Part shown: positions 9,350-27,143 of the stretch, piece by piece | How the letters are laid out: each line of letters opens with the position of its first letter | Position numbering within the stretch: the first letter of the stretch is position 1 | From: a virus | Strand: one strand, 5' to 3' | IMG/VR virus record: IMGVR_UViG_3300032116_000500 | Coordinates: 1 to 40,476 of that record | DNA: 40,476 nucleotides | The notes under the pieces: model-generated | What the model saw: only the letters and a program-made list of their open reading frames with translations | The model's database searches: none | Told to the model about the DNA's origin: nothing | Translations under genes and position numbers: made by a program

Positions 9350-11403
9350 TGGGTGCCACCACGCGCACCAACTTCCGCTCGATGGCCGGGGGCGAGATCA
9401 CGCCCGAGATGTACGGCCGGATCGACGACGTCCGCTACCAGACGGGCCTCGCCCTGTGCCGCAACTTCATCACCCTGCCCCACGGGCCAGCGCAGAACCG
9501 CGCAGGCTTCCAGTTCGTGCGCGAGGTCAAGGACAGCACCAAGAAAACCCGCCTCCTGCCCTTCACTTTCAGCGTCTCCGACACGGTGGTCATCGAGTTC
9601 GGGGCGGGCTACTTCCGCTTCCACAGCCAGGGCGGCACGGTCCTCTCGTCGGGCAGCCCCTACGAGGTCGCCAACAGCTACGCAGAGGCCGACCTGTTCG
9701 ACGTCAAGTTCGTGCAGTCGGCGGATGTGCTGACGCTGGTCCACCCCGACTACGTCACGCAGGAGCTGCGCCGCTCAGGCGCTACGAGCTGGGCCCTGGC
9801 CAACGCCACCACCGGCCCTGGCATCGACGCCCCCGCGGGCCTGGCCGTCACGCCTACCACGGCGGGGGCGAGCTTCCTGCGCAACGACGCGTATGTCGTG
9901 ACGGCGACCACCGCCACGGCCGAGAGCGCGGCGTCGGCGGCCGTCACGGCGTCCAACAACCTGAGCGCCGCCAACACCTACAACACGGTCAGCTGGACGG
10001 CACGCACCGGGGCCACGGGCTACCGGGTCTACCGCCAAGCGGGCGGCCTCTTCTACCTGATCGCGGTGCTCGACGGCAACGGCTCGGTCAGCGTGATCGA
10101 CGACAACCTGCCCGCCAACGGCGGCATCACGCCGCCCCAAGCCTCCGACCCCTTCGCCTCCAGCAACTACCCGGGAGCGGTGACCTACTTCGAGCAGCGC
10201 AAGGTCTTCGGCGGCTCGACGACACAGCCCCAGAACATCTGGACCACGCGCACCGGGTCGGAGGTCGACTTCAACTTCTCGGTGCCGCCGCGCGACGACG
10301 ACAGCATCCAGTTCGAGATCGCCGCCCGCGACTATAACCAGATCATCCACCTGGTCCCTCTCCAAGACCTGATCGTCATGACCCAGGCGGGTGAGTGGCG
10401 CATCTCCTCCGGCGGCAACGCCCTGACGCCGGGCGGCTTCAGCGTGCGACCGCAGTCGTTCGTCGGCGCGGGCCCCGCCACGCCGATCACCACCGGCTCG
10501 AACCTGATCTTCGCCGACACGGCTGGCCACATCCGCGAGATGTCGTACCAGGACACCGCCGCCGGTTACCTGACCGGCGACCTGTCGCTGCGCGCACCGC
10601 ACCTGTTCGACACCTACGAGATCGTCGACACCGCCCAGACCAAGTCGCCCTACCCGGTCCTCTGGTTCGTCAGCTCGAGCGGCAAGCTGCTGGGCCTGAC
10701 CTACATCCCCGAGCAGCAGGTGTCGGGCTGGCACCAACACGACACCGACGGCGCGTTCGAGAGCATCGCGGCCGTGCGCGAGGGCACCGAGACGGCGCTC
10801 TACGCCATCATCCGGCGCACGATCAACGGTAGCTCGGTGCGCTACGTCGAGCGCATGCGCAGCAGGGCCTTCAGCGCAGCGGCCGACGCCTTCTTCGTGG
10901 ACGCCGGTGTCTACTACAGCGGCTCGGCCATCAGCACGGTGACCTCGGGCCTCTCCCACCTCAACGGCAAGACCGTGTCGATCCTGGCAGACGGCGCTGT
11001 CTGCCCGCAGCAGACGGTCGTGGCGGGCGGCCTGCCAGAGGCGCTGCCCGCTGCCGCCTCCAAGATCATCATCGGCCTGCCCATCACCGCCGACCTGCAG
11101 ACCCTGCCCTTCGCCGTCGAGATGCCGGGCGCGGGCCAGGGCCGACCGAAGAACGTCAACGAGGTGTGGCTGCGCGTCTACCGCAGCTCCGGCGTGTTTG
11201 CGGGCCCGAGCTTCACCAGCCTGACCGAGTACAAACAGCGCACCACCGAGGTGTACGGCGCGCCGCCCAACCTGACCACCGACGAGATCGCCATCAAGAT
11301 CGGGCCGCAGTGGTCGACCAACGGGCAAATCTGCATCCGCCAGTCCGACCCCCTTCCCCTGACCGTGCTGTCGATCTCCGCGGAGACTGTCCTTGCCGGT
11401 TGA
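9349..11403 (+). CDS. Tail tubular protein B (nozzle), T7 gp12-like
   Basis: 684 residues. The ATG overlaps the upstream stop (TGATG). The N-terminus has the family pattern MAGGEITPEMYGRIDD, then FITLPHGPAQNRAGF. An inserted domain at about residues 160-255 (YVVTATTATAESAAS through YRVYRQAGGLFYLIAV) looks like a fibronectin type III fold. The rest (PQNIWTTRTGSEVDFNF, then LIVMTQAGEWRISSGG) is the beta-propeller nozzle body. It forms the distal tail tube and carries spikes or fibres. Ends 11 bases inside the following gene. Confidence 0.9.
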   Translation: MGATTRTNFRSMAGGEITPEMYGRIDDVRYQTGLALCRNFITLPHGPAQNRAGFQFVREVKDSTKKTRLLPFTFSVSDTVVIEFGAGYFRFHSQGGTVLSSGSPYEVANSYAEADLFDVKFVQSADVLTLVHPDYVTQELRRSGATSWALANATTGPGIDAPAGLAVTPTTAGASFLRNDAYVVTATTATAESAASAAVTASNNLSAANTYNTVSWTARTGATGYRVYRQAGGLFYLIAVLDGNGSVSVIDDNLPANGGITPPQASDPFASSNYPGAVTYFEQRKVFGGSTTQPQNIWTTRTGSEVDFNFSVPPRDDDSIQFEIAARDYNQIIHLVPLQDLIVMTQAGEWRISSGGNALTPGGFSVRPQSFVGAGPATPITTGSNLIFADTAGHIREMSYQDTAAGYLTGDLSLRAPHLFDTYEIVDTAQTKSPYPVLWFVSSSGKLLGLTYIPEQQVSGWHQHDTDGAFESIAAVREGTETALYAIIRRTINGSSVRYVERMRSRAFSAAADAFFVDAGVYYSGSAISTVTSGLSHLNGKTVSILADGAVCPQQTVVAGGLPEALPAAASKIIIGLPITADLQTLPFAVEMPGAGQGRPKNVNEVWLRVYRSSGVFAGPSFTSLTEYKQRTTEVYGAPPNLTTDEIAIKIGPQWSTNGQICIRQSDPLPLTVLSISAETVLAG

Positions 11404-11875
11404 GGTGCGCTTCGCCCAGATCGCGGACGCCGACACCATCGAGCCGAACCTGCGAGGCTCCGACCGCGACGAGCTGGTCGCCGCCTCGGGGCCCGACGTG
11501 CTCGGCCAGCTGCGCGAGGCGGTCGAGCTGTCGCACGGTCGGCTGGGCCCGATGTCCTTTGTCGCGGAGCACCAAGGCGAGATCGTCGCGCTCTTCGGTT
11601 TCGTGCCAGCGGCGGCCCTGTCCAACACCGCCTACCCGTGGCTGGTCGGCACGCCCGGCCTGGGCCGTGTGCCCCGTATGTTAAACCGGCTTTCCCGCTC
11701 GTACTGTGCTGCCGTGCTGGCCGAATACCCCCTTCTGTTCAACCACGTCGACGCCCGCAACACGACGAGCATTTCCTGGCTGAAGAGGCTGGGGTTCAAG
11801 ATCAGCGAAGCCCAACCCTTCGGTGTCGAAGGCCTCCCCTTCCACCGCTTTGAGATGCGAGGCCCCCTTGTGTAA
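11393..11875 (+). CDS. GNAT-fold internal virion protein, T7 gp13-like
   Basis: 160 residues from TTG 11393 (GCGGAGA upstream), overlapping the nozzle gene by 11 bases. The sequence reads as an acetyltransferase-like fold. It has an N-terminal VEVRFAQIADADTIEPNLR, a central beta strand pair (MSFVAEHQGEIVALFGF), and a C-terminal LLFNHVDARNTTSISWLKRLGF motif typical of GNAT proteins. T7 gp13 lies at this position and has the same kind of ending (VGNTSHIRFLKTIG, from memory), so this is probably its homologue. The acetyl-CoA loop (Q/R-x-x-G-x-G/A) is not clear, so it may be catalytically dead. Role in T7: needed for core assembly or DNA ejection. Confidence 0.75.
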   Translation: MPVEVRFAQIADADTIEPNLRGSDRDELVAASGPDVLGQLREAVELSHGRLGPMSFVAEHQGEIVALFGFVPAAALSNTAYPWLVGTPGLGRVPRMLNRLSRSYCAAVLAEYPLLFNHVDARNTTSISWLKRLGFKISEAQPFGVEGLPFHRFEMRGPLV

Positions 11876-12470
11876 CCCCGCAGCCAGCATGGCCCTTCAG
11901 GGCGTAGGCGCGGCGACCTCGGCCATTGGTGCCTACGGCTCGGCCAAGTCCCAGAAGAGCGCGCTCGGGTTCCAGGCCCAGATGGCCGACATGAACGCGG
12001 AGCTGGCAGAGCGCCGCGCGCAGATCGCACTGGACCAGGGGGCCTATCAGGCACAAGAGATCGAGCGCAGCGGTGCCCGGCAGAAGGGCACGCAGCGCGC
12101 AGAGATGGGCGCGAGCGGCATCGCCCTCGGCAGCACCACCGCGCAGGCCATCGTGGTCGGCACTGACCTGGTCACCGCCGAGGACGCGCAGCAGGCGCGG
12201 ATCAACGCCGTGCGCGCGGCCTGGGGCCAGCGCACGGAGGCGACCAACATGCGCAACGAGGGCCGCGCCGCCCGGGCCAACGCCAAGGGCATCAACCCGA
12301 TGGGCGCAGCGGCGACCAGCCTTCTGGGCAGCGCCACGAGCATGGCGCAGAGCGCCTACAGCATGGGCATGTTCAAGGGCAACGGAGCCGTTATGAAGCC
12401 CTCGTCGGGCTCCGGTTTCCGTGGCGGCCGTGACCGGCCGATGTCCCGCTTCGGGGGCTACGGCGGCTGA
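11868..12470 (+). CDS. Internal virion core protein, T7 gp14-like
   Basis: Best start is TTG 11868, eight bases inside the upstream gene with GCGAGG before it. It gives the family's usual beginning MCNPAASMALQGVGAATSAIG; the longer GTG start at 11823 would add an unlikely tail. The product is 200 residues. Residues 30-150 form a long Ala/Gln/Glu helical stretch (QMADMNAELAERRAQIALDQG), with a Gly-rich C-terminus. In T7, gp14 is ejected into the outer membrane and forms a pore for DNA passage. The gene order gp13-14-15-16 is kept here. Its stop overlaps the next ATG (TGATG). Confidence 0.85.
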   Translation: MCNPAASMALQGVGAATSAIGAYGSAKSQKSALGFQAQMADMNAELAERRAQIALDQGAYQAQEIERSGARQKGTQRAEMGASGIALGSTTAQAIVVGTDLVTAEDAQQARINAVRAAWGQRTEATNMRNEGRAARANAKGINPMGAAATSLLGSATSMAQSAYSMGMFKGNGAVMKPSSGSGFRGGRDRPMSRFGGYGG

Positions 12471-14614
12471 TGGCCAACCTTCGCATCGACGACCAACGTC
12501 GCGTCGCCCCGGGCCAAGCCCCGGGCCAGTTCGACGCGCCCGACGCCTCGCGCGGAGCGGAGTTCGCCTCGCGCCAGATGCAGCAGACGGGCCAGGCCCT
12601 GTCCCAGGCCGGGCAGGCCGTGGGCGCGATCTACCGCGCCGAGGTCGAGAAGCTCAACGAGACCCGGGTAAACGACGCGCTGAACCGCGTTGCCGTCGCC
12701 GCCCAAGAACAGCAGGCTGAGTGGTCGGGGCTGCGGGGCGAAGCGGCTATCGCTGTCGGCGAGAACCGCGAACCCCTAGACCAAGTGTACGGCGCACGTT
12801 TTGAGAAATCCGTCGGCGACATCGCGAGAGAGATGGGCCTGACGGGCGAGCAGCTCGAGATGTTTGCGCCGCGCGCCAGCACTTACACGACGCAGTACCG
12901 TGGCAGCATGCTCCAACACGCTTCCCGCGAACGGGAGAGCTACGAGGCCGAGGTCGCGGTCACGAGGCAGGCCATCGGGCAGCAGGCCATCCTCGGTAAC
13001 CCCGGGGACGAGACCGTCACGGGCCCGGCCCGCCGCGACATCCGCGATGCGGTGATCTCGGATCGCCGCAGAAAAGGTCTGTCGACGGAGGGCGACGAAC
13101 TGGCCGTGCTGGACGTCACCGGCAAAGCCTACCTCGACGCGATCATCGCGACGGAGGACGAAGACTTCGAGGGGGCGCAACAGCTCTTTGATCGCTACCG
13201 AGGCTTCATGACGCCAGCGCAGCAGAACGCGGCGCAGAACACTCTTTCGGTCGGGATTGCCTACAACGAGGCCGAGGCGTATGTCGCCGCTGCCCGGCAG
13301 GGTGTGGCCCCGCCCCCCGGCCAGCCCGGCAGCGAGTTCCAACACCCAGCCCCGGGCGCGGATGTTTCCTCCCGGATGGGCATGCGCATACACCCCATCA
13401 CGGGTGCCCGCACGATGCACGGCGGTACCGATTTTGCCGCCCCCCTCGGGTCGCCTGCCCGCGGCATGATGGGCGGTCGCGTGCTCGAAGTGAGCTATGA
13501 CGAGCTGAACGGCAACATCGTGCGGATCGACCACGGCAACGGCCTCATCGGCAGCTATGCGCACTTGCAGGGCGCTGACGTGCGCGAAGGGCAAGACATC
13601 ACCGCGGGCCAGAACATCGGCCGCGTCGGCTCTACCGGCCGCAGCACGGGCCCCCACCTGCACGTCACTATGCGCAGGAACGGCGAGCTGGTCGACCCCG
13701 AGACGCTGATCGGCGAAAGCGCGCAGCAGGCCGAGGGGCAGGCTGCCGCGGGCCGCCCGACCCGCGCCCAGATGGAGGCCGATGCCCGGCAACGCTTCAG
13801 CAACAACCGCGTCCAGCGGGAGGCCGCTTTGTCCGCCATTTCGCGCGTCTACGGCGAAGAGGATAGAGCCAAACGCGAGGCCGAACAGGCGGCGCTCGAC
13901 GCTGCCTACCAACACATTGAGCAGACCAGCACCATGCCGACGCCCGCGATGCTGGCCGCGCTTCCGCCGGGCCGCCTCAACGGCGTGCAGGGCTACCTCG
14001 ACGCTCGCCTCGCGCGCCTTGCGGACCCCGTGATGCGCAGCGACCCGGCTGTGCGCCTGCGGCTCGCGGCGATGACTTCCGATCAACTAGCGCGGCTGGC
14101 CCGCCAGTCGCCGCAAGAGATCGAGGCCGAGTTCGGCCCCTACCTATCCACCTCCGATCTGGAGAGCCTCATAGGTCAGTCCACCCGGGCCAGCGAGGCC
14201 CAAAAGCAAGCAGCCCGCGCCGCGACCGTGGTCCCGCACGCGGAGTACACCCGCGCTTTCGCTTCCGTGACTGACATCATGGGGATCGACCGTACTCCTT
14301 CCGGCCCCGGCGCGCTTGAAGACCGCCAACAGCTGGAGGTGTTGGACCAAGGCGTGCGCGAGTGGGTCGTTTCGCGGCAGGTCGCCGCGGGCCGTCAGCT
14401 CGACGAGAACGAAATCAGGCAAGAAATCCAATCCCGCCTCGCCCGTCTGGCGGCGGGCAACCGCAGGACGTCGACGGGCTACGACAGCATGCGCCAGGCC
14501 GACCGCGAAGCGGCCCGCCAGCGGTTGATTATTCTCGGCATGCCGCGTGGCGACATCGACGAGACGGCCATCTACCGCGAACACGTTCGTGTCCGCGTGA
14601 CCCAGGGAAACTAG
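12470..14614 (+). CDS. Ejected core protein with M23 peptidase domain (gp15 position)
   Basis: 714 residues. The N-terminal 290 residues are helical and Gln-rich. Residues about 300-410 form an M23 (lysostaphin-type) endopeptidase: RMGMRIHPITGARTMHGGTDFA supplies the first zinc ligands (H317 and the nearby Asp), and GSTGRSTGPHLHVTMR gives the H-x-H pair. The C-terminal 300 residues are helical and charged. By position it matches T7 gp15, which is ejected and spans the periplasm. The M23 domain would cut peptidoglycan cross-links locally during DNA entry, a job done in T7 by the transglycosylase in gp16. All three zinc-site motifs are present, so it should be active. Confidence 0.85.
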   Translation: MANLRIDDQRRVAPGQAPGQFDAPDASRGAEFASRQMQQTGQALSQAGQAVGAIYRAEVEKLNETRVNDALNRVAVAAQEQQAEWSGLRGEAAIAVGENREPLDQVYGARFEKSVGDIAREMGLTGEQLEMFAPRASTYTTQYRGSMLQHASRERESYEAEVAVTRQAIGQQAILGNPGDETVTGPARRDIRDAVISDRRRKGLSTEGDELAVLDVTGKAYLDAIIATEDEDFEGAQQLFDRYRGFMTPAQQNAAQNTLSVGIAYNEAEAYVAAARQGVAPPPGQPGSEFQHPAPGADVSSRMGMRIHPITGARTMHGGTDFAAPLGSPARGMMGGRVLEVSYDELNGNIVRIDHGNGLIGSYAHLQGADVREGQDITAGQNIGRVGSTGRSTGPHLHVTMRRNGELVDPETLIGESAQQAEGQAAAGRPTRAQMEADARQRFSNNRVQREAALSAISRVYGEEDRAKREAEQAALDAAYQHIEQTSTMPTPAMLAALPPGRLNGVQGYLDARLARLADPVMRSDPAVRLRLAAMTSDQLARLARQSPQEIEAEFGPYLSTSDLESLIGQSTRASEAQKQAARAATVVPHAEYTRAFASVTDIMGIDRTPSGPGALEDRQQLEVLDQGVREWVVSRQVAAGRQLDENEIRQEIQSRLARLAAGNRRTSTGYDSMRQADREAARQRLIILGMPRGDIDETAIYREHVRVRVTQGN

Positions 14615-14620: not shown

Positions 14621-17600
14621 ATGTCTTTCCAAGAGCCAGAAGACAACATCTTCGACGAGTTGATCCCTGGGCGGCGCAGGCTCCAACGCTCCCTGGAAAC
14701 GGCGTCGACCCTGAACCCAGACACCGTCGCCTCCGACCGCCGGGAGGCGGCGCGCCGTGGCATGCCCGTCGACACCTACGCCACCGCGCGCCAACAGAAT
14801 GTGCCGCTGCCCCCGGCCAACTGGCAAGACCTGCCGGATCAGTTCCCTGAGATCACGGCGTTCCTGTCCCGCCCCGAGAACGCCGCCGTCGCGCATGATG
14901 ACCTCCCGGCGTTGACCGGCATCGAGCGCACTTTGACCTTCACCGGCGACCTGGGTCGGCGTCTGGCTGGCAGCGGCGGGATGCTGGGCAGTGCTATCGC
15001 CGGGATTAGCCGGGGCGGGCAGCGTCTCGCCGACCGGCTCGGCTACGCCGACGACAGCACGACGCAACGCCTGTTCGAGGGTGGCGTCGATCTCGGTGCC
15101 CGGATAGAAATCGGCGCGCGCAACATTGCGGGCACGCTGAACCCGAGAGAGCGCGCCCTGTACGGGGCCCAGAATAACCTCCTTCCCCAAGCCCGGGACA
15201 CCGGCTTCACTGGCGACGTGGTCGACGCGCTTGGCCAAATCGCCACGCAGATCGGCGTTAACATAGTCACCGGCGGCACGGGCTCGGCGATCACCATGAC
15301 GGGCCAAGGCGTCCGCGGCATGGACGTGCGCGTCGAAGAGGCTATGGCGCGGGACGGGCGCACCGACTACACCGTGGCGGACGACATCGCTCTCGGCGGT
15401 GGCGGCGCGCTGACCCTGATTACAGAAAAGCTCGGCCTTGACGCTGTGCTGGGCCGCCTGCCTCCTGCGTTGAGAGCGCAGGTCCAAGGCCGCCTCGCGA
15501 ACATTCTGGTTGGCGGCATCGGTGAAGGCACCACCGAAGTGGCAGACACGGTCGGCCAAAACCTGCTGGCGGCGGCCTTGCTCGGGGAAGACGTATCGCC
15601 GGGCCAAGGCGCTGCGGAGGCGGGCGCTGTCGGAGGCACCGCCGGTGCCATCGCTGCCCTGACCGTTGACCTGCTCACCCCGGGCAGGCGCAGAAGCCAA
15701 GCCCGCATGGAGGCAGACGCCGCCAGCGCAGAGCAAGCCGCCCAGACCTTCCAAGACCTGACCGACCTGTCCGCCGCGTCGCGTCTGCGCGAGCGCGACC
15801 CGCAGACCTTCCAGCAGTTCGTCGAGCAGATGACCGAGAACGGTCCCGCCGAGAACATCTACGTCGACGCCCAGACCTTCGCCCAAAGCCTGAACGACGC
15901 CGGTGTGTCCATCGAAGAGGTGACCGCCGCGATCCCGTCGTTGGCCGACCAGCTGCCCAACGCCATCGCCACCGGCGGCGACGTGCGCATCACCACCGGC
16001 GAGTTCGCAGCGCACCTCGCCACGACCGACGCCACGGCGGCTCTGCTGCCCCACATGCGGATCAGCCCTTCCGCCATGAGCCAGGCCCAGGCCAAGGAGT
16101 TCATGGCCACGCGCGGCGAGGCGCTGCAGGCCGAGGTCGAGGCCGCGGTCGCCCAGGCCACCGCCACCGAGGAGCTGCGCGCTGGCCGCGAGCGCCTGCA
16201 GACCCGCATCACCGAAGAGCTGAACGCCGCCGGTCGTTTCACCAAGGACGTGAACGCTGCCTACGCGACCCTGCCCGCCACCTTCTACGACGTCATGGCC
16301 GCGCGCACCGGCAAGACGGCCGAGCAGCTGGCTGAGAAGTACCAGCTGCGCTACGCCGCCGAGCTGCCCACCAGCACCGGCCGCCGGGTCATGGAGCAGG
16401 AAGACACGGTCGACCTGATCCACTACAGCAGCACCTCGGGGCTGATGATGTCCGACCCCTCGCGCTGGGGCGCGACGGGCGTGACGCAGGACGCCGAGCG
16501 CGAGCGCCGCGCCGCCGGTGCGCCGGGCCGCACCTATTTCGGCGTGCGTGGTGTATACAACGGCGAGCCCGGCACGGGCATCCGCAACCGCTCCTTCCGC
16601 TACCAGGCCCGCGTCCCCGCCTCAAAGCTCTACGACTTCGACGCTGACCCGCAGAACCTGAAGCCCACCGAGGGCACGCCCAACGAGATCGCCACCGCCT
16701 ACGAGAAGGCGATCCAGGCCGCAGGCTTCAGCGGCTACCGCAGCGACGCCGTGATCCCCGGCGCAGTCGCGCTGTTCGATGCCGTCGACATGGAACCGGA
16801 GGGGCCCGTTCGCACCGCGCAAGACGCACAGCGGCTGGCGGCGCGCATGCGCGAGCTGGCGCAACAGGATCGCCTGGCGCGGCTCGCAGCGCGCACCGAT
16901 CCCAACGAGAGCATCGCGACCCGCCCCGCGGAAGACTTCCGCGAGCAGGCGGCAGCGGAGCTGTTCGGCTCGAGCTTCGCCCAGAGCGCCTCTCTGCGCG
17001 ACGGTCGCGAGACGCTGCAGAAGTACGGGCTGAACCCGAACAAACGCTACAGCACCCGCCAGGTCGCCGCTGCGCTCGAGGCGCGGCAGCGGGCCAAGTA
17101 CGGGTCGATCTCGGCCAAGGACCGGAGCCCCGAAGCCGCGAAGAAGATCGCGAAGTGGATGGCCGAGGAGGTGCAGTTCGAGCTGCAGAACCCGGAGCAA
17201 TCCGGTGTGGGCTGGTACTCGACCAAGTTCCAGGCCGCGCTCGACATCTTCGCGCAAGAGTTCCCAGAGCTGGCCACGGACAAGGACGCCCGCGACACCT
17301 TCACCGCGCTGATCGCCATCACGTCCGACGGCCAGAAGGTCGTGCCGAACTTCCAGCAGGCCGCTGGCATCTACCGGGCCTTCAAGACCGACGGCCGTTT
17401 CGTCGCCGACCGAGGCACCCAGCGCCAGGCCAGCGTCGACCAGAACCTGGCCAAGGTGCAGGAGCTGCACGACACGCTCGGCCCGGCAGGCATGCGCGAG
17501 ACGCTGCTGCAAGAGCTGACGGTGTCGGACCTGAAGAAGAAGGCCGCGGCGCTCGGTGTTGAGTTCTCCACCAGCTACAAGGCCGACGTCAAGCTGCCGC

Positions 17601-20600
17601 TGGCCGCCGTCATCTTCGGCCCGAAGCTCGGGGCCTTCTACGCCAACCTGATGGGCGCGGACGGCTACCTGACGATGGACCGCTGGTGGTCGCGCACCTT
17701 CAACCGCTACCGAGGCACCCTGCTGCAGAAGCCGACCGCGCAGGGCATGGCCCGCTTCCGCGAGCTGCTGGGCCAACCGAACCTGTCGGACGACGAGACC
17801 CTGGCCGCGGCGGTCGGGCCTCGCAACGCCTACGCGGCGCGCGGCTACAAGAACCCCTCCGAGATCGAGGCCGCAGCGAACACGCTTTACAAGGCCGCCT
17901 TCGAGAACATCGAGGACAAGCCCTTCAACGCCTCCGACCGCAGTTTCATGCTGGACACGGTCGCCCAGGCGCGGGCTACGCTCAAGCGCCAAGGCGTTGA
18001 GATCAGTGTGGCGGACATTCAGGCCGTCCTGTGGTACTATGAGAAGCGCCTGTACGGAGAGCTGGGCGCTCGTCAAACAGCGGATGTGAGTTATGAAGAA
18101 GCAGCCCAACGTGTCGTCGCTGAAGGAACCGCGGATGTTGGAGCCCTCGGACCCGATCTGGGAGGCGACTGGGAAGCTGCCGCTGAACAGTCTGATCCCG
18201 GCGCTCTCGCCTACAACCAAGGCCCCGTCGCCCGCAGCGTAGACGCCTACTTCTCCCTGGAGAACATCGGCTCGCTGCTGGAGAAAGACGACTGGACGAT
18301 CCTCACGGCAGAGAACCCGATGGGCCAGCAGGCCACGCCGGAGGAGAACGCCAAGGCCCAGGCCAAGCTGGTCGCTGACCTCGACGCGCTGGGCGTCGAC
18401 TACCAGCCGTCGATTGGCCGCTACGGCCAGATCGAGAACTCGTTCGTGGTCGTCGGGATCACCGAGAAGCAAGCCCGCGATCTGGGCGCGAAGTACGATC
18501 AGGACAGCGTGCTGACCCGCAAGGGTCTGATCTACCAGGACGGGCGGGTCGACGCCGCCGTCGGCCTCACGGTCCACGACACCCGCCCCGAGGACTACTT
18601 CACCGAGGTGCCCGGCACCGGCGCGCTGTTCACGGTGGACCTGGACTTCGGCGAACAGACCGAAACCTTCAACCAGTCCGACCCCTTCTACTCGGCGCTC
18701 GAACGCGCTGTGGCTGGCAGCCCCCTGACCAAAGCGCCAGCGGCGCAGTGGATGGCGACGCTCTCCAAGACGCCCGGCGTCAAGAAGGAAGAGATCGAGA
18801 TCACGGGGCTGAACGACTGGCTTGATGCGCTGGCCGATCCAGACCCGCTCGCGCAGACTTTCGCGCTCGAAGCTGGCCAGGTCGATGCAAAGGGCAACGT
18901 CTCGAAGGAGACGGTGCTCGCCTTCGTGCAGTCCGGCGGGGTGCGGCTGGAGGAGACGGTTCTTGGTGAGCCTGATCCCGACGCGGACGCCGAGATCGAC
19001 CGGCTGGTCGAGAAAAGCCAGCAGCGCGTGCGCGAGGAGGCTATGGCCAACCCCGCTTATGGCGCAACCGAGAGCCGCGATGGAAGCGGCTGGACGATAT
19101 ACAACCGCGCCAACTACATAGAGTGGAGCGAGCGGTTCCAAACCGAGGCCGAGGCCGAGGCGTTTGCGGAGCGGGCGAACCGCCTCCAGCTCGAAGAACG
19201 TCTCGCCGAGAACGAGGGCTATGCCCGCCGGACCTACGTCGAGGACGCAAGGAACAGGAACCCGCTCGGCACCCGGTTTACCGACTACACCATCAAGGGC
19301 GCGGTCCCCGGATCGCAGCGCGAGTTTCTCGTGCGCCTGCCCGTCTTCAAGGGTAACACATTCGACAGCTCGGAACATCACTTCGAGGGCATAAACGACA
19401 TCATTGGACACTTCCGCGCGTCCGAACACGCCGCCGCGAACGGTAAGAAAACGATGGTGCTGGACGAGGTCCAGTCGACCCACCACGCGATGGGCGAGGC
19501 CGACGGCTACGCGATCTCTGCCGACCCGGCGACGCTGGCTGCGCTTCAGGAAGCCTACAACGCCGCGTTGGAGGCGCAGCGCGCCTCGTGGCCGCCGACG
19601 GTGGACGCCGCGCTCCGGGCGCTTGGGCAGCATCTGGAGCGGTATCGGGGGAACCCCGGCGTCGAGGAGGCGACCCAGCGCACCCTCGACGATCTCAATG
19701 ACCGCAACAACCGCAACCCGTCGTCGGCCGCGATCTACGCCTACAACGTCCTGAACGCCCACAGCTCGCTGCTCGACGACGAGGCGCGCGTGGCGATGAA
19801 CGCCTATAGCAATGCCCGCCTGCGCACCACCGAGGCGGCGGGCGCGTTGCTCGCGGCCCAAGGCCAAGGCGTTGCCGACGCCCCTTGGAAGAAGAGCTGG
19901 GACGCCCTGCTGATGAAGCGGGCTATCCGCTACGCTGTGGACAACGGCTTCGAGCAGATCGCCTGGATCAACGGCAACCAGCAGAACGGCGGGCTGACCG
20001 GCGGCGACGGCTCGTGGTTCTACGAGCGCAACCTGGTCAACGTGACCAACGACATCGTCAAGAAGTTCGGCACCAAGGTCGGCAAGGTGGATATGATCCG
20101 CAACGAGCCGGGCTCGCCTCGTCGCGACCTGATGGAGTTCGTCGCGGAAGTCGACGCCCGAGGAGAAAACTCGGGCTACGGCACCCTCGCGGAGTTCCAA
20201 CGCCCCGCCAACAAGCTCGGCATCCAGAACGGCTTCGAGATCACGCCGCAACTGGCCGAGGCTGCCCGCAAGGGCTTCGCCCTGTTCCAACCGAACCGTG
20301 GCCAGATCGCCTTCGGCCAGGACATCACCCAGACCCCGTCGGTCATCAGCCTGCTGCGCGCCGCCGACCTCTCGACCTTCATCCACGAAACCGGGCACTT
20401 CTTCCTCGAAGCCACGGCCGACATGGCCAACGCCACCGACGCCCCGGCCGACATCGTCGCCGACATGGCCACCGTCCTGAACTGGATGCGGCCGGGCATG
20501 ACGCTCGCCGACTGGAACGTCATGTCGCTCGAAGAGCGCAGGCCCTTCCACGAGAAGTGGGCGCGCGGCTTCGAGGCCTACCACTTCGGGGGGCGCAGCC

Positions 20601-23600
20601 CCAGCCTCGCCCTGCGCGACGTGTTCCGCCGCTTCTCGGCCTGGCTCAAGAACGTCTACAAATCCCTGACCGCCCTCGACGTCGAGCTGACCGACGAGGT
20701 CCGTCAGGTCATGGACCGGATGCTGGCCACCGAGGCCGAGATCACCGAGATGGAACAGGCCCGTGGCCTGACGCCAGCCTTCACCAACAAGCCCGAGTTC
20801 GCCAGCGACGACGAGTGGGAAGAGTACCAGCGGCTGGCAGGCGACGCCACGGCCGAAGCCATCGAGCAGCTCGAGCAGCGCAGCGCGCGTGACATGCGCT
20901 GGGCCTCCGGTGCCAAGGACCGCTACCTGCGGTCGCTGCAGCGCGAAGGCGAAGAGCAGCGCAAGGCTGTCCGCGCCGAGGTCACCGCCGAAGTCATGGC
21001 CGAGCCCGTCAACCGGGCCCGCGCTTTCCTGCGCCGCGGCCTGGGCGAGAACGGCGAGCCGGTCGAAGGTGCAGCGAAGCTGGACCTGGCCACCCTCAAG
21101 TCGCTCTACGGCGACGAGGGCACCTGGACCGGCCTGCGCCGTGGCGGCAAGTACGGGGAGGTCAGCACCGACGGCCTGCACCCCGACGCCGTCGCCAGCA
21201 TGTTCGGCTACACCAACGGCCAGGCCCTGATCGAAGACATGGTCAACGGCGAAGACAGCGCCGACAAGATCAAGGGCCTGACCGACCAGCGCATGCTCGA
21301 GCGTTACGGCGACCTGTCCGACGCGCAGTCCATCGAGCGCGCCGCCAACGAGGCCGTCGCCAACGAGGCCCGGGCCAAGTTCGTCGCCGCCGAGATGGCG
21401 ATGGCCGACAAGGCCATCGGCAAGAAGTCGATCCTGAACAGCGCCGCCAAGGAGTTCGCGGCCTCGGTCGTCAACCGGCTCGAGCTGAAGCGTCTGCGCC
21501 CGGCGCAGTACCTCGCCGCCCAAGGCCGCGCCGCCAAGGCCGCCGAGAAGGCGCTCAAGGGCGACGACCTGCCCGGCTTCGCCACGGCCAAACGCAACCA
21601 GCTCGTCAACCTGCACACCGGCCGCGCAGTCCAGCAGGCGCAGAAAGACGTCGAGAAGACGATGCGGTTGTTCACGCGGATCGTGAGCGCCAAGGACGAC
21701 AGCATCTCGAAGTCGCGCAACATGGACCTGGTCAACGCCGCACGCGCGGTGCTGTCCTCCTACGGCGTCGGCCGCGTCAAGAACGACCCGGCGGGCTACA
21801 TGCGCGCCCTGTCGCAGTACGACCCGACGCTCTACGCCGACATCGAGCCCTTCGTGAACGGTGCCAGGGGCGACGCCAAGCCCATCGTCGACCTGACCTA
21901 CGAACAGTTCACCGCGCTGCGCGACACCGTCAACCAGCTCTGGGCTCTGTCGCGCCGCACCAAACAGATCGAGATCGACGGCAAGCTCATGGACCGCGAA
22001 GTGGTCACCACCGAGCTGGGCCTGCGCCTCGACGAGATCGGCATCCCCGCCCAGGCTGGCGTCGACCGCGCGCCGACGGATCGCGACAACCGCGTCCGTG
22101 ACCTGCTCGGCGCTCGCGCCGCGCTGCGCCGCGTGGAGAGCTGGGCCCGGGGTACGGACGGTGCGAACTCGGGGCCGTTCCGCAAATATATCTGGAACCC
22201 GATCTCGGTCGCCGCCGACGCCTACCGCGCCGAGAGCGGCGTCTACATCCGCCGCTTCCGCGAGCTGCTCGACGGCATGCGCGACGAGCTGAAGCCGGTC
22301 GACATCAAGGCCCCCGAGATCGGCTACACCTTCGGCGGCAAGTCCGAACTGTTCCATGCCCTGCTGCACACCGGCAACGGCTCGAACAAGTCCAAGCTCC
22401 TGCTCGGCAGGAACTGGGGCAAGAAGAACGCTGACGGCTCGCTCGACGACACCCGCTGGCAGTCGTTCGTCGACCGCCTGCACACCGAGGGCGTGCTGAC
22501 CCAGAAGGACTGGACCTTTGTCCAAGCCGTGTGGGACTTGCTCGAAGAGACCAAGCCCGGCGCGCAGAAAGCTCACCGCGCAATCTACGGCCGGTACTTC
22601 GACGAGGTCAGCGCCGACCCGGTCGACACCCCTTTCGGCCAGCTGCGCGGCGGCTACGTCCCTGCGATGACGGACGGCTTCCTGGTTCAGGACGCCGCTC
22701 TGCGCGCCGAGCAGGAGGCCATCGAAGGCGGCGACAGCGCCATGTTCCCGGCGGCCTCGAACGGCTTCACCAAGTCGCGCGTCGAGGACTACACCCGCGA
22801 GCTGGCGTTGGACCTGCGCCTGCTGCCGATGCACATCGACAAGGTGCTGAAGTTCACGCACCTGGGCCCGCCCGTCCGCGACGTCGCCCGCATCCTGAAA
22901 GACCGGGGCTTCTCCCAGAAGCTGCAGGCCTACGACCCGACGGCCCAGACCGACCTGCTGCTGCCTTGGCTGCAGCGCGCCGCCAAGCAGCTGGTCGAGA
23001 CCCCGTCCAAGGGCCGCGCCGGTAAGGCAGCCGACCGCTTCTTCAGCGCCGTGCGCAGCCGCGTCGGCATGCAACTGATGTTCGCCAACGTCGTGAACAC
23101 GGCGCAGCAGGTCACCGGCTTCTCGAACGTGCTGCTGCGTGTCGACGCCCCGATCCTGGGCGACGCTCTGTGGCGCTACGTCCGCGACCCCAAGGGCGTC
23201 GCCGAAGCCGCCGCCAGCCAGTCGGTCTTCCTGGCCAACCGCATGTCCTCGGACATCTTCGAGGCGCGCCAGACCATCGCGCAACTCACCAAGCTGGACC
23301 CGTCGAAGACGGACGAGGCCGTGGCCTTCCTGCAGCGCAACGCCTACTTCATGCAGTCGGCGCTGCAGAACGTCATGGACGTCATCAGCTGGACCGCGGC
23401 CTTCAACCAGGCCTCGGGAAAGGGCGAGAGCGACCGCGACGCCGCGCGCTTCGCCGACAGCGTGATCCGCGAGACCCAGGGCACGATGGCCCCGGAGGAT
23501 GTCTCGCGCTTCGAGACGGGCCCGGCGTTCATCCGCGTCTTCACGCAGTTCGCTGGCTACTTCAACATGATGGCGAACCTGAACGCCACCGAGGTGCAGC

Positions 23601-24151
23601 TGGTCGCCCGTGACGCCGGTCTCAAGAAGGGCATGGGCCGCCTGTTCTACGTCTACCTGATGGGCTTCGCGGTCCCCGCCCTGCTCGGCGACGCCATCGC
23701 CAAGGCGCTGCGCGGCGGGTGGGAAGACGAAGAGGGCGACGGCTATCTCGACGACCTGTTCGCTTGGTTCTTCTCGTCGCAGGCCAAGTTCGCTCTGGCC
23801 GCCGTGCCGGTCGTGGGCCAGGCCGCCAACGCCGCGCTGGGCGCGTTCACGAAGCTGCCCTACGACGACCGCATCTCGATGTCGCCCGCGGTGTCGGTGA
23901 TCGAGAGCGGCCTGGGCACCCCGGCCGAGGTCTACCAGAGCTTGGTCGACGGCGAGAGCTTCAACCGCGCCGACACGCGCGACGCCCTGAACCTGCTCGG
24001 CGTCCTGACCGGCACGCCCATCGGCGCGCTGGCCAAGCCCCTGGGCTACGGCGTCGGCGTCGCGCAAGGCGACATCGAGCCGACCGGCCCGCTGGACGCA
24101 GCGCGCGGCGTCATCACCGGAGCGCCCTCGCCAGAGAGCAGGATGCAGTGA
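14621..24151 (+). CDS. Giant polyvalent virion protein (gp16 position), 3176 residues
   Basis: AGGACACA precedes the ATG. Order of recognisable parts: an N-terminal region with hydrophobic Gly-rich helices (about 100-350); a helical part; a domain opening with IHYSSTSGL (H601) and RTYFGVRGVYNGEPGTG; a helical module at about 800-1150; a DUF3293-like domain (DDWTILTAENPMGQ, about 1222-1340). Next is a module seen in many phage multidomain proteins (SSEHHFEGINDIIGHFR, then MVLDEVQSTHH, then KSWDALLMKRAIRYAVDNGF; about 1550-1900). Then a zincin-like HETGH (H1922, E1923, H1926) with a possible third ligand E1985 in RGFEAYHF; long coiled coils; and a C-terminal LPD38-like region with two hydrophobic segments (YVYLMGFAVPALLGDAIA and KFALAAVPVVGQAANAAL). 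Likely ejected into the host with the DNA. Domain names are from memory. Confidence 0.85.
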   Translation: MSFQEPEDNIFDELIPGRRRLQRSLETASTLNPDTVASDRREAARRGMPVDTYATARQQNVPLPPANWQDLPDQFPEITAFLSRPENAAVAHDDLPALTGIERTLTFTGDLGRRLAGSGGMLGSAIAGISRGGQRLADRLGYADDSTTQRLFEGGVDLGARIEIGARNIAGTLNPRERALYGAQNNLLPQARDTGFTGDVVDALGQIATQIGVNIVTGGTGSAITMTGQGVRGMDVRVEEAMARDGRTDYTVADDIALGGGGALTLITEKLGLDAVLGRLPPALRAQVQGRLANILVGGIGEGTTEVADTVGQNLLAAALLGEDVSPGQGAAEAGAVGGTAGAIAALTVDLLTPGRRRSQARMEADAASAEQAAQTFQDLTDLSAASRLRERDPQTFQQFVEQMTENGPAENIYVDAQTFAQSLNDAGVSIEEVTAAIPSLADQLPNAIATGGDVRITTGEFAAHLATTDATAALLPHMRISPSAMSQAQAKEFMATRGEALQAEVEAAVAQATATEELRAGRERLQTRITEELNAAGRFTKDVNAAYATLPATFYDVMAARTGKTAEQLAEKYQLRYAAELPTSTGRRVMEQEDTVDLIHYSSTSGLMMSDPSRWGATGVTQDAERERRAAGAPGRTYFGVRGVYNGEPGTGIRNRSFRYQARVPASKLYDFDADPQNLKPTEGTPNEIATAYEKAIQAAGFSGYRSDAVIPGAVALFDAVDMEPEGPVRTAQDAQRLAARMRELAQQDRLARLAARTDPNESIATRPAEDFREQAAAELFGSSFAQSASLRDGRETLQKYGLNPNKRYSTRQVAAALEARQRAKYGSISAKDRSPEAAKKIAKWMAEEVQFELQNPEQSGVGWYSTKFQAALDIFAQEFPELATDKDARDTFTALIAITSDGQKVVPNFQQAAGIYRAFKTDGRFVADRGTQRQASVDQNLAKVQELHDTLGPAGMRETLLQELTVSDLKKKAAALGVEFSTSYKADVKLPLAAVIFGPKLGAFYANLMGADGYLTMDRWWSRTFNRYRGTLLQKPTAQGMARFRELLGQPNLSDDETLAAAVGPRNAYAARGYKNPSEIEAAANTLYKAAFENIEDKPFNASDRSFMLDTVAQARATLKRQGVEISVADIQAVLWYYEKRLYGELGARQTADVSYEEAAQRVVAEGTADVGALGPDLGGDWEAAAEQSDPGALAYNQGPVARSVDAYFSLENIGSLLEKDDWTILTAENPMGQQATPEENAKAQAKLVADLDALGVDYQPSIGRYGQIENSFVVVGITEKQARDLGAKYDQDSVLTRKGLIYQDGRVDAAVGLTVHDTRPEDYFTEVPGTGALFTVDLDFGEQTETFNQSDPFYSALERAVAGSPLTKAPAAQWMATLSKTPGVKKEEIEITGLNDWLDALADPDPLAQTFALEAGQVDAKGNVSKETVLAFVQSGGVRLEETVLGEPDPDADAEIDRLVEKSQQRVREEAMANPAYGATESRDGSGWTIYNRANYIEWSERFQTEAEAEAFAERANRLQLEERLAENEGYARRTYVEDARNRNPLGTRFTDYTIKGAVPGSQREFLVRLPVFKGNTFDSSEHHFEGINDIIGHFRASEHAAANGKKTMVLDEVQSTHHAMGEADGYAISADPATLAALQEAYNAALEAQRASWPPTVDAALRALGQHLERYRGNPGVEEATQRTLDDLNDRNNRNPSSAAIYAYNVLNAHSSLLDDEARVAMNAYSNARLRTTEAAGALLAAQGQGVADAPWKKSWDALLMKRAIRYAVDNGFEQIAWINGNQQNGGLTGGDGSWFYERNLVNVTNDIVKKFGTKVGKVDMIRNEPGSPRRDLMEFVAEVDARGENSGYGTLAEFQRPANKLGIQNGFEITPQLAEAARKGFALFQPNRGQIAFGQDITQTPSVISLLRAADLSTFIHETGHFFLEATADMANATDAPADIVADMATVLNWMRPGMTLADWNVMSLEERRPFHEKWARGFEAYHFGGRSPSLALRDVFRRFSAWLKNVYKSLTALDVELTDEVRQVMDRMLATEAEITEMEQARGLTPAFTNKPEFASDDEWEEYQRLAGDATAEAIEQLEQRSARDMRWASGAKDRYLRSLQREGEEQRKAVRAEVTAEVMAEPVNRARAFLRRGLGENGEPVEGAAKLDLATLKSLYGDEGTWTGLRRGGKYGEVSTDGLHPDAVASMFGYTNGQALIEDMVNGEDSADKIKGLTDQRMLERYGDLSDAQSIERAANEAVANEARAKFVAAEMAMADKAIGKKSILNSAAKEFAASVVNRLELKRLRPAQYLAAQGRAAKAAEKALKGDDLPGFATAKRNQLVNLHTGRAVQQAQKDVEKTMRLFTRIVSAKDDSISKSRNMDLVNAARAVLSSYGVGRVKNDPAGYMRALSQYDPTLYADIEPFVNGARGDAKPIVDLTYEQFTALRDTVNQLWALSRRTKQIEIDGKLMDREVVTTELGLRLDEIGIPAQAGVDRAPTDRDNRVRDLLGARAALRRVESWARGTDGANSGPFRKYIWNPISVAADAYRAESGVYIRRFRELLDGMRDELKPVDIKAPEIGYTFGGKSELFHALLHTGNGSNKSKLLLGRNWGKKNADGSLDDTRWQSFVDRLHTEGVLTQKDWTFVQAVWDLLEETKPGAQKAHRAIYGRYFDEVSADPVDTPFGQLRGGYVPAMTDGFLVQDAALRAEQEAIEGGDSAMFPAASNGFTKSRVEDYTRELALDLRLLPMHIDKVLKFTHLGPPVRDVARILKDRGFSQKLQAYDPTAQTDLLLPWLQRAAKQLVETPSKGRAGKAADRFFSAVRSRVGMQLMFANVVNTAQQVTGFSNVLLRVDAPILGDALWRYVRDPKGVAEAAASQSVFLANRMSSDIFEARQTIAQLTKLDPSKTDEAVAFLQRNAYFMQSALQNVMDVISWTAAFNQASGKGESDRDAARFADSVIRETQGTMAPEDVSRFETGPAFIRVFTQFAGYFNMMANLNATEVQLVARDAGLKKGMGRLFYVYLMGFAVPALLGDAIAKALRGGWEDEEGDGYLDDLFAWFFSSQAKFALAAVPVVGQAANAALGAFTKLPYDDRISMSPAVSVIESGLGTPAEVYQSLVDGESFNRADTRDALNLLGVLTGTPIGALAKPLGYGVGVAQGDIEPTGPLDAARGVITGAPSPESRMQ
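18093..18242 (+). other. Possible overprinted 49-residue ORF inside the giant gene
   Basis: A different reading frame from the giant gene: ATG 18093 (two codons after an in-frame TGA) to TAG 18240-18242. Across this stretch the third codon positions of this frame are mostly G or C (AAG AAG CAG CCC AAC GTG), the usual bias of the genome. The giant gene's own frame here uses AGT TAT GAA GAA GCA. The product would start MKKQPNVSSLKEPRMLEP. No good ribosome binding site is seen. It may be a real overlapping gene or the trace of an ancient frame change in a linker. Confidence 0.25.
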
Positions 24152-24218: not shown

Positions 24219-27143
24219 TTGGCCATATCCTCGAGCACCCGCAAGGCCGGGCCGTTTCTCGGCAATGACGCGACGACGGTTTTCCCGTTCGCGTTCAAGG
24301 TCTTCACCGCCGCCGATCTGCGCGTCGTCCGCACCAACGCCCTCGGGATCGAGAGCGACCTGGTGCTCGACACCGACTACACGGTCGCGCTCAACTCGAA
24401 CCAAAACAACGATCCCGGCGGCACGGTGACGCGCACCACGGCTCTGCCGACCGGCGAGAGGCTGACAATCACCTCCGATGTTGAGGCGCTCCAACCCCTG
24501 GTGCTGACGAACAACGGCGGCTTCTACCCAAGCGTCATCAACGACGCCTTCGACAAGATCACCATCATCGCGCAGCAGCTGATCGAACAGGTCGGCCGCT
24601 CGTTGAAGCTGCCGATCAGCTCTTCCGCCAGCCCCACCCTCCCCGACCCTGTGGCCAATCAGCTCATCGCGTGGAACAGTGGCGCGACCGGGTTTACCAA
24701 CTTCGACCCCACGGACCTCGCCACCGTCGCCGCCTACGCCGACGCCTACATCGACTTGTTCACAGGCAACGGAACGCAGACCAACTTCACTTTGACCCAC
24801 GGCCCGGCCGTGCTGGCCAACTTGTCTGTGTCGATCAGCGGCGTGGTCCAGGTCGGCGGCGAAGACTTTACTTGGGTCGGCACCACGCTCACCTTCGCGG
24901 TCGCGCCCCCGACCGGCACGCGCATCCAGGTGCGCTACACCCGCGCCATTCCGATCATAGACGTGGCCGCCGTGGAGCTGGCCCGCGATCTGGCGCAAGG
25001 CTACGCCTCCGACGCCGCCGGTGTCTCCGGCGTCAACGTGCCCTCCTACGCCTCGCGCGCATCTCTCGCCGGGGCCACGGTCGCGGCGGCCATCAAGCAA
25101 ATCGCCACGCGGGGTTATGCCGCCGAGAGCGACGGTGGCGGCGCAACCTACGCCCGCACATCCTACGCGACGATTGTTTCCGCGGGCTACCCAGCGGCGT
25201 CCTACCAACGCTCGACCGACCGCATTATGCCAGACGGCTCCACGGACGCCACCAACGGCGGTTATTGGTTGATCGTAGAGCCGGTCACGCGCCCCGAAAT
25301 GTTCGGGCCAATGACCACGACGACCGAGACGACGGCCGCGATGAAGGCTGCGGTCCACTTCATGGCGTTGACCAAGCGGCCCTTGGTTCTGCGCGGCTCG
25401 TACGACGTTAACGGAGAAATCGCCCCGAACATTACGATGGCAAACGCGGCCTACAATCTCCGGTTTGAAGGTGATGTGACGATCACCTACGACGCGTCGG
25501 CGGCGGCGACCGAATACTTCCTCGGCGTGTTCAGCACGGCGGCGACCAAGAACTACATCGGCCAGACAGGCGGCTCCCTGACCATCGTGGCCAACAGTAA
25601 AATACAGCGCGCCCTCTCGCTCGGTTGTGCCTCCGGCTCGTCGGCGATTGCCGGTGAGTGCCATGTGCGGGGTGTGCGGGTCACGAACGTCTACGGGCCC
25701 GCTGGGTCCAACGGGGTCGCCTACGCCATCGACATCTCGGGCCCATTCGCCCGGTACTCCCTGGACGATCTGGCGACGGACGGGGCGACGCGCGACGCCA
25801 GCCTGGACGCAACGGGCGATTGCAAAGGTCTGCGGGTTTCGCAGGCGCGCGTGGCTGTCGAGGTCACAAACTCGTCCTTCCTCAACGTCCAGAACGCCCT
25901 CCAAGATGCAGACGGAGCCGCGATCTTCGGCCCGCTGGGCGGAGGCGGGGTGCCCGTCGGGCCGCTCGCTCGCTTTGTCAACTGCACCTTCACAGGCAAC
26001 AGGGGCCGCAGCTGCAAGACCCAGACGCGGCGTACGGAAGCCATCAACTGCGTGTTCGACCGGGGTGGCGTCGGAACAATCTCGGGCGGTCTGGAGATCG
26101 ACGCGCAGTGCGGCGAGCTTTACGTTGAAAACTGCCGCATCAACATCGACGTGGCGGTTGGGGCCAGCTACTCCGTATTCGCTTCGCAGCTGACCAACCC
26201 TGACACCGCGCGCTTCACCACCATCCGCGACGTCGAGGTCCGCACGACGGTCGATTTCCCGAGGTTCTTCCTCACAGTCCTGGGTGCCAACTCGCCCAGC
26301 TCGACAGTCCTCATCGACAACGTCCGCGTCCTCGGCGTAGACGGTTTGGTGACGACGGCTCTGTCCCGGTCTTTTGTCGAGTTCCAGGCCGACCAAGTCA
26401 AGCTGGCGAGCACCAAACTCTCGATCACCGTGGCAAACTGTACTGTCCAGACCAACCTGATGCTGATCGGGTACACAGGCCACGACGGCACGGACCTTTC
26501 AGCAAAGCTCGCCATCCACGCCTACAACAACAAAAACACGCTGACGGTTGTCAGCAACAACCGAGTGTTCAACCAGTTGTCGGGCACGACGATTGCCAAG
26601 CTGACCGACTATACGTTCCGCGAGAACGAAAACTTCTACACGCATTTCGTAAACTGGGACATCAGCTTCGCGACGATCAAGCCGGGCAACGATTTCGTGG
26701 TGGAGCTGGCGGGGGCGACGGTTACTAGCGGCCCGAGCGGTCTGCCGGTGACGGGCTACGCGCGCATCGTCACGGGCACGGGGGAGCAGACGTTATGGAA
26801 CGAGCTGCCGCGCGAAATCATCGTGGAAAACTACGGCCGCCACTTCTACACGCAAACCGGCACTTGGGTCGAGCTGGCCGACCGCGCCATGCTGGAAGGC
26901 ACCGCGACCTTCGACGCCGCCTCTCTCGCCCTCGGTGGGTCTGGCGCGATCCAAACGCTGACCGTGACGGGCGCGGCTTTGGGCGACCTGACCCAAGCCT
27001 CTTTGTCCGTCGACCTGGCCGGTGTCGTCATCCACTCGTGGGTGAGCGCCGCCAACACCGTGAAGTATTTCGCCCACAACCTCGGGGGAGCCGACCCGGT
27101 TGATCTTGCGTCGGCCACCGCAAAAATACGGGTAGTCAAGTAG
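24219..27143 (+). CDS. Tail spike with beta-helix (receptor-binding protein)
   Basis: TTG 24219 with GGAG upstream; 974 residues. Residues 1-130 form the common phage fibre adapter (TTVFPFAFKVFTAADLRVV, then LVLTNNGGFYPSVINDAFD). Residues about 185-250 repeat an adapter-like fold (FTGNGTQTNFTLTHGPAVL). Residues about 290-355 carry the GYAAESDGGGATYARTSY motif found before beta-helices. Residues about 360-800 look like a right-handed parallel beta-helix of the pectate-lyase type, probably binding or cutting surface polysaccharide. The last 150 residues form a separate beta-rich end. The helix part has more A/T-ending codons than the adapter, as expected for a swapped host-range module. No catalytic pair could be fixed by eye. 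Confidence 0.85.
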   Translation: MAISSSTRKAGPFLGNDATTVFPFAFKVFTAADLRVVRTNALGIESDLVLDTDYTVALNSNQNNDPGGTVTRTTALPTGERLTITSDVEALQPLVLTNNGGFYPSVINDAFDKITIIAQQLIEQVGRSLKLPISSSASPTLPDPVANQLIAWNSGATGFTNFDPTDLATVAAYADAYIDLFTGNGTQTNFTLTHGPAVLANLSVSISGVVQVGGEDFTWVGTTLTFAVAPPTGTRIQVRYTRAIPIIDVAAVELARDLAQGYASDAAGVSGVNVPSYASRASLAGATVAAAIKQIATRGYAAESDGGGATYARTSYATIVSAGYPAASYQRSTDRIMPDGSTDATNGGYWLIVEPVTRPEMFGPMTTTTETTAAMKAAVHFMALTKRPLVLRGSYDVNGEIAPNITMANAAYNLRFEGDVTITYDASAAATEYFLGVFSTAATKNYIGQTGGSLTIVANSKIQRALSLGCASGSSAIAGECHVRGVRVTNVYGPAGSNGVAYAIDISGPFARYSLDDLATDGATRDASLDATGDCKGLRVSQARVAVEVTNSSFLNVQNALQDADGAAIFGPLGGGGVPVGPLARFVNCTFTGNRGRSCKTQTRRTEAINCVFDRGGVGTISGGLEIDAQCGELYVENCRINIDVAVGASYSVFASQLTNPDTARFTTIRDVEVRTTVDFPRFFLTVLGANSPSSTVLIDNVRVLGVDGLVTTALSRSFVEFQADQVKLASTKLSITVANCTVQTNLMLIGYTGHDGTDLSAKLAIHAYNNKNTLTVVSNNRVFNQLSGTTIAKLTDYTFRENENFYTHFVNWDISFATIKPGNDFVVELAGATVTSGPSGLPVTGYARIVTGTGEQTLWNELPREIIVENYGRHFYTQTGTWVELADRAMLEGTATFDAASLALGGSGAIQTLTVTGAALGDLTQASLSVDLAGVVIHSWVSAANTVKYFAHNLGGADPVDLASATAKIRVVK

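Follow-up and report, generated by a model that had tools for sequence, protein, structure and literature searches.

Genomic context of the 3176-residue protein

What is a protein of 3176 residues doing in the position that T7 gives to gp16, and in what does its unusual size consist? The window, a 40,476-base virus contig of 66% GC, has the gene order of a podovirus, with terminase, portal, major head protein, tail tube proteins, two internal virion proteins and a 714-aa peptidase-bearing protein, followed by the 3176-aa protein and then the tail fibre. The genes that define the locus are as follows.

11393..11875, + strand: internal virion protein, phrog_308 (E 1.1e-32)
11823..12470, + strand: internal virion protein, phrog_418 (E 3.2e-25)
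12470..14614, + strand: 714-aa protein bearing a peptidoglycan peptidase, directly upstream (endolysin and metallo-endopeptidase PHROGs)
14621..24151, + strand: coding sequence of the 3176-aa polyvalent protein in the gp16 position (ATG at 14621, stop codon ending at 24151)
24219..27143, + strand: tail fibre or spike with a T7 gp17-like N-terminal anchor, directly downstream (phrog_1640, E 5.3e-25)

The preliminary description of this DNA had assigned the gene to the gp16 position, and the gp14-like and other internal virion proteins and M23-type peptidase gene upstream, together with the tail fibre downstream, bear this out; synteny with the T7 gp14/gp15-like genes and tail fibre is present. 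Given that hhalign against T7 gp16 returned no significant match (probability 1.7%, E 0.03), it is the position that has been demonstrated and not homology to gp16. As in T7, the series of ejection genes ends with its largest member, just before the tail fibre. In contrast to T7, the peptidoglycan-cutting domain is encoded by the upstream gene, and the protein is 2.4 times as long as T7 gp16 (1318 aa), in agreement with the earlier statement that it is more than twice that length. The record itself begins within a terminase large-subunit-like ORF (1-816), and therefore either the contig was opened in the packaging gene or it is incomplete.

The length of the ORF is by itself weak evidence for a gene, because the record is rich in GC and a shadow ORF of 2481 aa lies opposite (16622-24067, minus strand), a high-GC effect with no sign of coding. 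That the ORF is real, and was correctly delimited to the base in the preliminary description, follows from homology in the plus frame: PHROG 9880 matches the protein with 1266 bits, the identical 3176-aa ORF recurs in independent contigs, and 51 non-redundant full-length homologues were found among the best 80 of 575 matches, which were gathered by a C-terminal profile search of related contigs. Relatives found by tblastn were Limnohabitans phage DC33, ctQRb9, Bbp10 of Bordetella phage BPP-1, to which the protein is homologous, Acinetobacter Ab9 and Caulobacter Jess A. An NCBIfam search gave no match, and sequence searches of the PDB with the whole protein, the DUF3293 profile and the HhH profile gave nothing useful.

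Two conserved ends flank a slot of variable length

The protein consists of two conserved ends, which we refer to as the chassis, flanking a cargo slot with interchangeable modules that are gained and lost. Its parts are listed here in order, with residue numbers.

14681..14950, + strand: LPD22, N-terminal chassis, aa 21-110 (Pfam PF18834, E 4.6e-13)
14966..15685, + strand: Gly/Ala-rich, weakly hydrophobic stretch, aa 116-355 (hydropathy peak of 1.51 at aa 343)
15746..16420, + strand: chassis segment N2, aa 376-600 (present in 70 related ORFs)
16388..16825, + strand: ART-like cargo domain, aa 590-735 (H601, R637, Y671-D672, E695; 18-sequence alignment)
17036..18100, + strand: HhH DNA-glycosylase-like cargo domain, aa 806-1160 (G1000-x-K1002 and D1020 invariant; 17-sequence alignment)
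18239..18616, + strand: DUF3293 / SAM-lyase-like cargo domain, aa 1207-1332 (candidate catalytic E1272)
18749..20245, + strand: module of a small helical part and a GNAT-like EVQS domain with a long helical insert, aa 1377-1875 (absent as a unit in L005)
20336..21085, + strand: zincin, aa 1906-2155 (H1922-E1923-x-x-H1926, E1978, E1985)
21086..24142, + strand: C-terminal chassis, aa 2156-3174 (1008 +/- 21 aa in 51 homologues)
23642..23845, + strand: membrane-like stretches, aa 3008-3075 (hydropathy 1.71 and 1.47, around aa 3017 and 3066)

Across the 51 non-redundant full-length homologues, which range from 1888 to 3457 aa in total, the part from the N-terminus through N2 is 617 ± 40 aa long and the C-terminal chassis is 1008 ± 21 aa long; the slot, which separates N2 from the zincin, spans 771 ± 436 aa (range 36-1538). 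Because the variation in length is concentrated in the slot and the flanks are nearly constant, the unusual size of the protein is that of its cargo slot and not that of a longer gp16; the cargo amounts to 1326 aa here and to 183 aa in Bbp10. The slots of 47 relatives hold 20 Pfam families, with ART-PolyVal in 27 of the 47, and DUF3990, GNAT, DUF7178, PBECR nucleases, DUF3293, GGDEF, RES and ParB among the others.

Exchange can be followed between close relatives. In the phage represented by L005 and L009 the C-terminal core is 94% identical, and aa 1377-1875 are cleanly absent in frame between DNA flanks that are 86-89% identical. On the chassis tree L007, which has no glycosylase-like module, and L006, which has no DUF3293, are both at most 0.14 changes per column away, and the chassis is 89% identical to that of L007 although the cargo differs. 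The glycosylase-like (HhH) module needs 11 changes on this tree, against 12.5 with shuffled labels, and thus is nearly without inheritance signal; inheritance is more stable for the EVQS module (4 changes against 9.3 shuffled) and for the ART-like module (8 against 11.6).

Within the chassis, the zincin-like HETGH with a distant Glu that had been noted earlier was confirmed, with HETGH at aa 1922 and the Glu at 1978 or 1985; all are invariant in a 10-member alignment and kept in about 90% of 84 rows. In five relatives (L077, L089, L094, L038 and L087) inserts of 130-430 aa split the zincin between its profile halves, which in L077 lie at aa 1803-1860 and 2091-2261, and therefore cargo can also occupy the interior of the peptidase domain. 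At the C-terminus the earlier proposal of an LPD38-like membrane end held only as far as a membrane-like end: LPD38 was rejected because Pfam gave no match at E<=1 in the protein or in nine homologues, and the membrane-like stretch stands on hydropathy, with a C-terminal peak above 1.6 in 86% of the 51 homologues. The Gly/Ala-rich stretch near the N-terminus is a possible, weak candidate for a first membrane segment.

The separate domains of this protein find support in homology and in structure models, and the presence of two or more disparate domains in one polypeptide within a structural and ejection neighborhood upholds its earlier designation as a polyvalent protein, although the list of domains had overlooked LPD22 and the glycosylase-like domain. 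Statements on fold made below rest on rows of the structural comparison (VIA) together with conservation of motifs; Foldseek returned no match at E<=0.001 for either of the two models, aa 588-1336 and the EVQS module.

An ART-like domain at the start of the slot

The motif at H601, which had been taken for an HYS-type domain, is present, but an alignment of 18 diverse sequences and the resemblance to the AcrIF11 fold change its identity to ART-like. That alignment keeps H601, R637, Y671 and E695 in every sequence and D672 in at least 90%. The model places H601 in strand 1 and D672 in strand 5, as in the Tox-ART-HYD2 clade. The ARTs of polyvalent proteins carry an H-Y-D pattern, according to the available text of PMC5512222, and the domain here is similar, but its strand-2 Tyr position varies, being Y639 in this protein and H, F or S in some relatives.

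The model of aa 588-1336 has a mean pLDDT of 66.5, with the ART-like part mostly at 73-94. Its nearest solved fold is AcrIF11 (6kyf, Z 5.9), an anti-CRISPR ADP-ribosyltransferase that modifies N250 of Cas8f (PMC13131331), yet the identity to it is only 9%; the catalytic fragments of cholix toxin follow with Z 3.8. Pfam ART families gave no match for this copy, and scans of viral contigs for close ART and DUF3293 relatives added few new ones. We consider the domain likely to be active.

DUF3293 is related to the SAM lyase of phage T3

A DUF3293-like domain had been recognized in the preliminary description, and Pfam DUF3293 indeed matches aa 1228-1297 (E 4.6e-16) and, over the wider range of aa 1207-1332, with E 2.1e-17. 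It can be read further as SAM-lyase-like. The Pfam model S-AdoMet_lyase matches with E 2e-5 and 25.0 bits, below its cut-off of 28, but the nine DUF3293 domains compared all match it at the same positions of the profile, and the DUF3293 of Flavobacterium phage elemoA passes the cut-off with 29.4 bits. In the structural comparison, where the model is moderately confident, T3 SAM lyase (7ock) is the top solved structure (Z 6.2 over 102 aa, 17% identity), the next being a ferredoxin-like ribosomal protein at Z 5.1. E1272 is the only invariant Glu column in nine sequences, and L-INS-i aligns it with T3 E68, a residue whose replacement by Gln abolishes rescue, as does E69Q in Svi3-3 (PMC7877911). 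When hhalign compared DUF3293 with T3 SAM lyase alone, the match was weak and the Glu fell elsewhere; this result was set aside in favor of the better agreement among the superfamily match in Pfam, the fold and the L-INS-i alignment.

DUF3293 is thus related to T3 SAM lyase at the superfamily level, with the catalytic Glu kept as E1272. The two share the ferredoxin-like resemblance, the position of the catalytic Glu, and the Q-D-x-V-L and GL[IV]Y motifs, and they differ in that DUF3293 is here an internal domain of 120 aa with shorter loops that falls below the Pfam cut-off. The known SAM lyases are trimers with active sites at the subunit interfaces (PMC7877911), which calls for caution in carrying the assignment over to a domain inside a longer chain. 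The T3 gene (NC_003298, L194:901-1359) is annotated as a "SAM-dependent methyltransferase".

It is quite possible, if far from certain, that SAM or one of its derivatives is cleaved by DUF3293. A more doubtful but still substantial alternative is that it is a relative of SAM lyases with another substrate, such as SAM-AMP in opposition to type III CRISPR, or a ligand-binding PII-like domain. The support for kinship reaches to the superfamily link and stops there, a family of SAM-AMP lyases is described in the available part of PMC12255297, and a DUF3293 protein is encoded in a bacterial control genome, that of Deinobacterium chartae, a cell that could ill afford a strong SAM lyase; what speaks against the alternative is that the sole invariant Glu column matches the very residue on which rescue by T3 SAM lyase depends. 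A pattern scan of bacterial genomes for close DUF3293 relatives found none, and no mention of DUF3293 was found in the literature searched.

DUF3293 adjoins an ART in two other polyvalent ORFs (L122 and L125). In elemoA (NC_055852, L195:4083-15167) it occurs in a 3694-aa "structural protein" that combines DUF3293 with an ART-like domain and has none of the chassis.

A glycosylase-like domain with conserved Lys and Asp

Structural matches to aa 806-1160 are moderate and mostly helical. The 8-oxoguanine glycosylase 3knt ranks first (Z 9.3 over 190 aa), chains of the queuine-salvage family DUF2419 occupy ranks 2-6 (Z 8.4-9.1 over 212-221 aa), tied with it in Z, and both stand far above the remaining rows for this region. 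Among the invariant columns of 17 sequences are G1000, K1002, G1004, D1020 and W1022, and the spacing of 18 between K1002 and D1020 falls within the 18-19 rule for the Lys and Asp of the HhH-GPD hairpin. The Pfam HhH-GPD model gave no match at E<=1, the search returning a weak match to DUF7178 (0.045), and for this reason we name the domain glycosylase-like and nothing more specific.

That the domain is a base- or nucleoside-cleaving enzyme is our tentative reading. A reading of slightly lower standing takes it for a nucleoside or tRNA-base N-glycosylase, or for a DNA-binding HhH domain, and not for an enzyme of DNA base excision; the DUF2419 chains, which align over a greater length than 8-oxoguanine glycosylase at tied Z, speak for this, while the distance of 18 between Lys and Asp equals that in the bifunctional HhH-GPD glycosylases (Nth, archaeal OGG) and speaks against it.

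The EVQS module resembles GNAT acetyltransferases

The EVQSTHH / KRAIRYAVDNG module reported earlier was found with EVQS at aa 1616 and KRAIRY at aa 1766, and the two belong to one GNAT-like domain that is split by a long helical insert. The domain is widespread, with at least 345 confirmed loci, and at E<=1 the module has no Pfam match, acetyltransferase families included. Its model has a mean pLDDT of 78, with cores above 90. GNATs, among them TacT, AtaT, KacT, NatD and GCN5, make up most of the top 28 structural rows (Z 8.0-9.4 over 116-135 aa, against a usual background of 7-8), the first two rows being titled isocitrate lyase 2 and Rv1916. Since Z lies just above background and no classical acyl-CoA motif stands out clearly, "GNAT-like" is the safe name; the domain may, with some reservation, be an acyltransferase.

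Ejection and delivery of cargo

Taken together with the gp14-like neighbors and the podovirus gene order, the gp16 position points to ejection, and we consider it probable that the 3176-aa protein is ejected. It also seems fairly likely that the product of the gene is an ejection protein organized as a carrier, with its cargo slot between the conserved ends of the chassis. Packaging, ejection, topology and processing, as well as each activity and each target, are here what we infer from these comparisons.

In the model that we propose, the N-terminal chassis (LPD22 and N2) and the C-terminal chassis (zincin, helical part and membrane-like end) would lie on either side of a slot that phages fill with effector modules by recombination. 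The protein would be housed in the virion with the other internal proteins and exit with the DNA. T7 gp16 crosses the inner membrane and its middle part (gp16-C) is cytoplasmic (PMC8954989), and by analogy the slot would face the host cytoplasm, so that the cargo could act at the entry of the DNA, ahead of phage gene expression. There the ART-like and GNAT-like domains might modify host or defense proteins, the SAM-lyase-like domain might deplete SAM or a SAM-derived signal and so blunt SAM-dependent restriction or BREX, and the glycosylase-like domain might target bases or nucleosides that are damaged or modified. Cleavage of the chain by the zincin may free the modules. In its fullest form, in which a podovirus lineage uses the gp16-position protein as an exchangeable effector carrier and the member studied here injects a SAM lyase, a base-excising glycosylase, and ADP-ribosyl- and acetyltransferases, this proposal is unlikely to hold in every part.

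The DarB-like antirestriction protein of podovirus JC1 is a giant. It has been found in virions by mass spectrometry (PMC9144972), and polyvalent proteins are predicted, in the accessible sections of Iyer et al. 2017 (PMC5512222), to be injected and perhaps processed by zincins. For Bbp10 and its family no virion proteomics was found in the literature; the BPP-1 virion paper identified capsid proteins only.

Two other accounts of the protein have to be weighed against the carrier. It could be a structural or ejection component of the virion whose variable domains are mostly inert, being leftovers of recombination, scaffold, spacer or DNA-binding parts. Consistent with this, chassis of 1888-2000 aa almost without cargo exist (L028 and L024), so that the slot is dispensable for phage viability, and several of the modules miss Pfam cut-offs. 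The candidate catalytic residues are, however, invariant in distant copies (K1002/D1020 in 17 sequences, E1272 in 9, H601 in 18), and Pfam enzyme families recur in the slots, and we regard inert domains as unlikely. Still less probable is that the protein acts late in the producing cell, in host takeover, assembly or maturation by the zincin, with little or no cargo reaching the next host. The gene does sit within the late structural cluster, and there is a precedent in P1 DdrB, which is cleaved before packaging, but position and neighbors favor ejection, and N4 vRNAP and the polyvalent proteins of plasmids are transferred whole (both precedents from the available text of PMC5512222).

Were the carrier reading correct, a protein injected with the DNA could weaken the defenses of the cell ahead of all phage gene expression. 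In the fullest form of the proposal, SAM-dependent restriction, modification or BREX would be out of action by the time the first phage gene is read, whereas T3 must first express its SAM lyase, which is the first protein made on infection (PMC8406200). On the carrier reading the locus would offer a compact and testable model for the loading of effectors ahead of expression, in which the contents of the slot are swapped between near-identical relatives, as well as likely folds for three phage modules, SAM-lyase-like for DUF3293, GNAT-like for EVQS and glycosylase-like for the third, and the slots of the relatives would amount to a list of candidate anti-defense enzymes.

Relation to known systems

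Polyvalent proteins, ARTs and the zincin are already known. What is new, as far as our tools show, is the quantified layout of fixed chassis and cargo slot, the link between DUF3293 and SAM lyase in a protein that is likely ejected, a glycosylase-like module in which Lys and Asp are conserved, and the interpretation of the EVQS module as GNAT-like. With the polyvalent proteins of Iyer et al. 2017, so far as the available text of PMC5512222 describes them, the protein shares disparate domains, LPD22, a zincin, an ART and a place in a phage structural cluster; it differs from them in the fixed chassis and defined slot quantified here. The main text of that paper does not mention DUF3293, gp16 or Bordetella, and no SAM-lyase-like or HhH-GPD-like domain was found in its available sections.

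BPP-1 Bbp10 and the other PHROG 9880 relatives (DC33, ctQRb9, Jess A and OANV1, whose gp16 has 2986 aa; PMC9239159) have the same gene position, both ends of the chassis and the zincin. Bbp10 differs in its short cargo and has none of the ART, DUF3293, EVQS and glycosylase-like modules. Residues 700-1000 of Bbp10 are one seed of the CLCA_X zincin family (PMC3650047), and the zincin here is homologous to that seed, with its HExxH; unlike the CLCA_X consensus HExxHxxxD, it reads HExxHxxxE (HETGHFFLE), and so does Bbp10 (HESGHFFLE).

Two minor observations concern the relatives themselves. L005 and L009 are one contig, IMGVR_UViG_3300046002_005763, opened inside the homologous gene, and its ends overlap in that protein, which suggests a circular assembly. 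Limnohabitans phage DC33 (L011, PQ492659; 39 kb) has podovirus-like relatives of its structural genes, and its placement under Inoviridae in the GenBank taxonomy looks like a misclassification.
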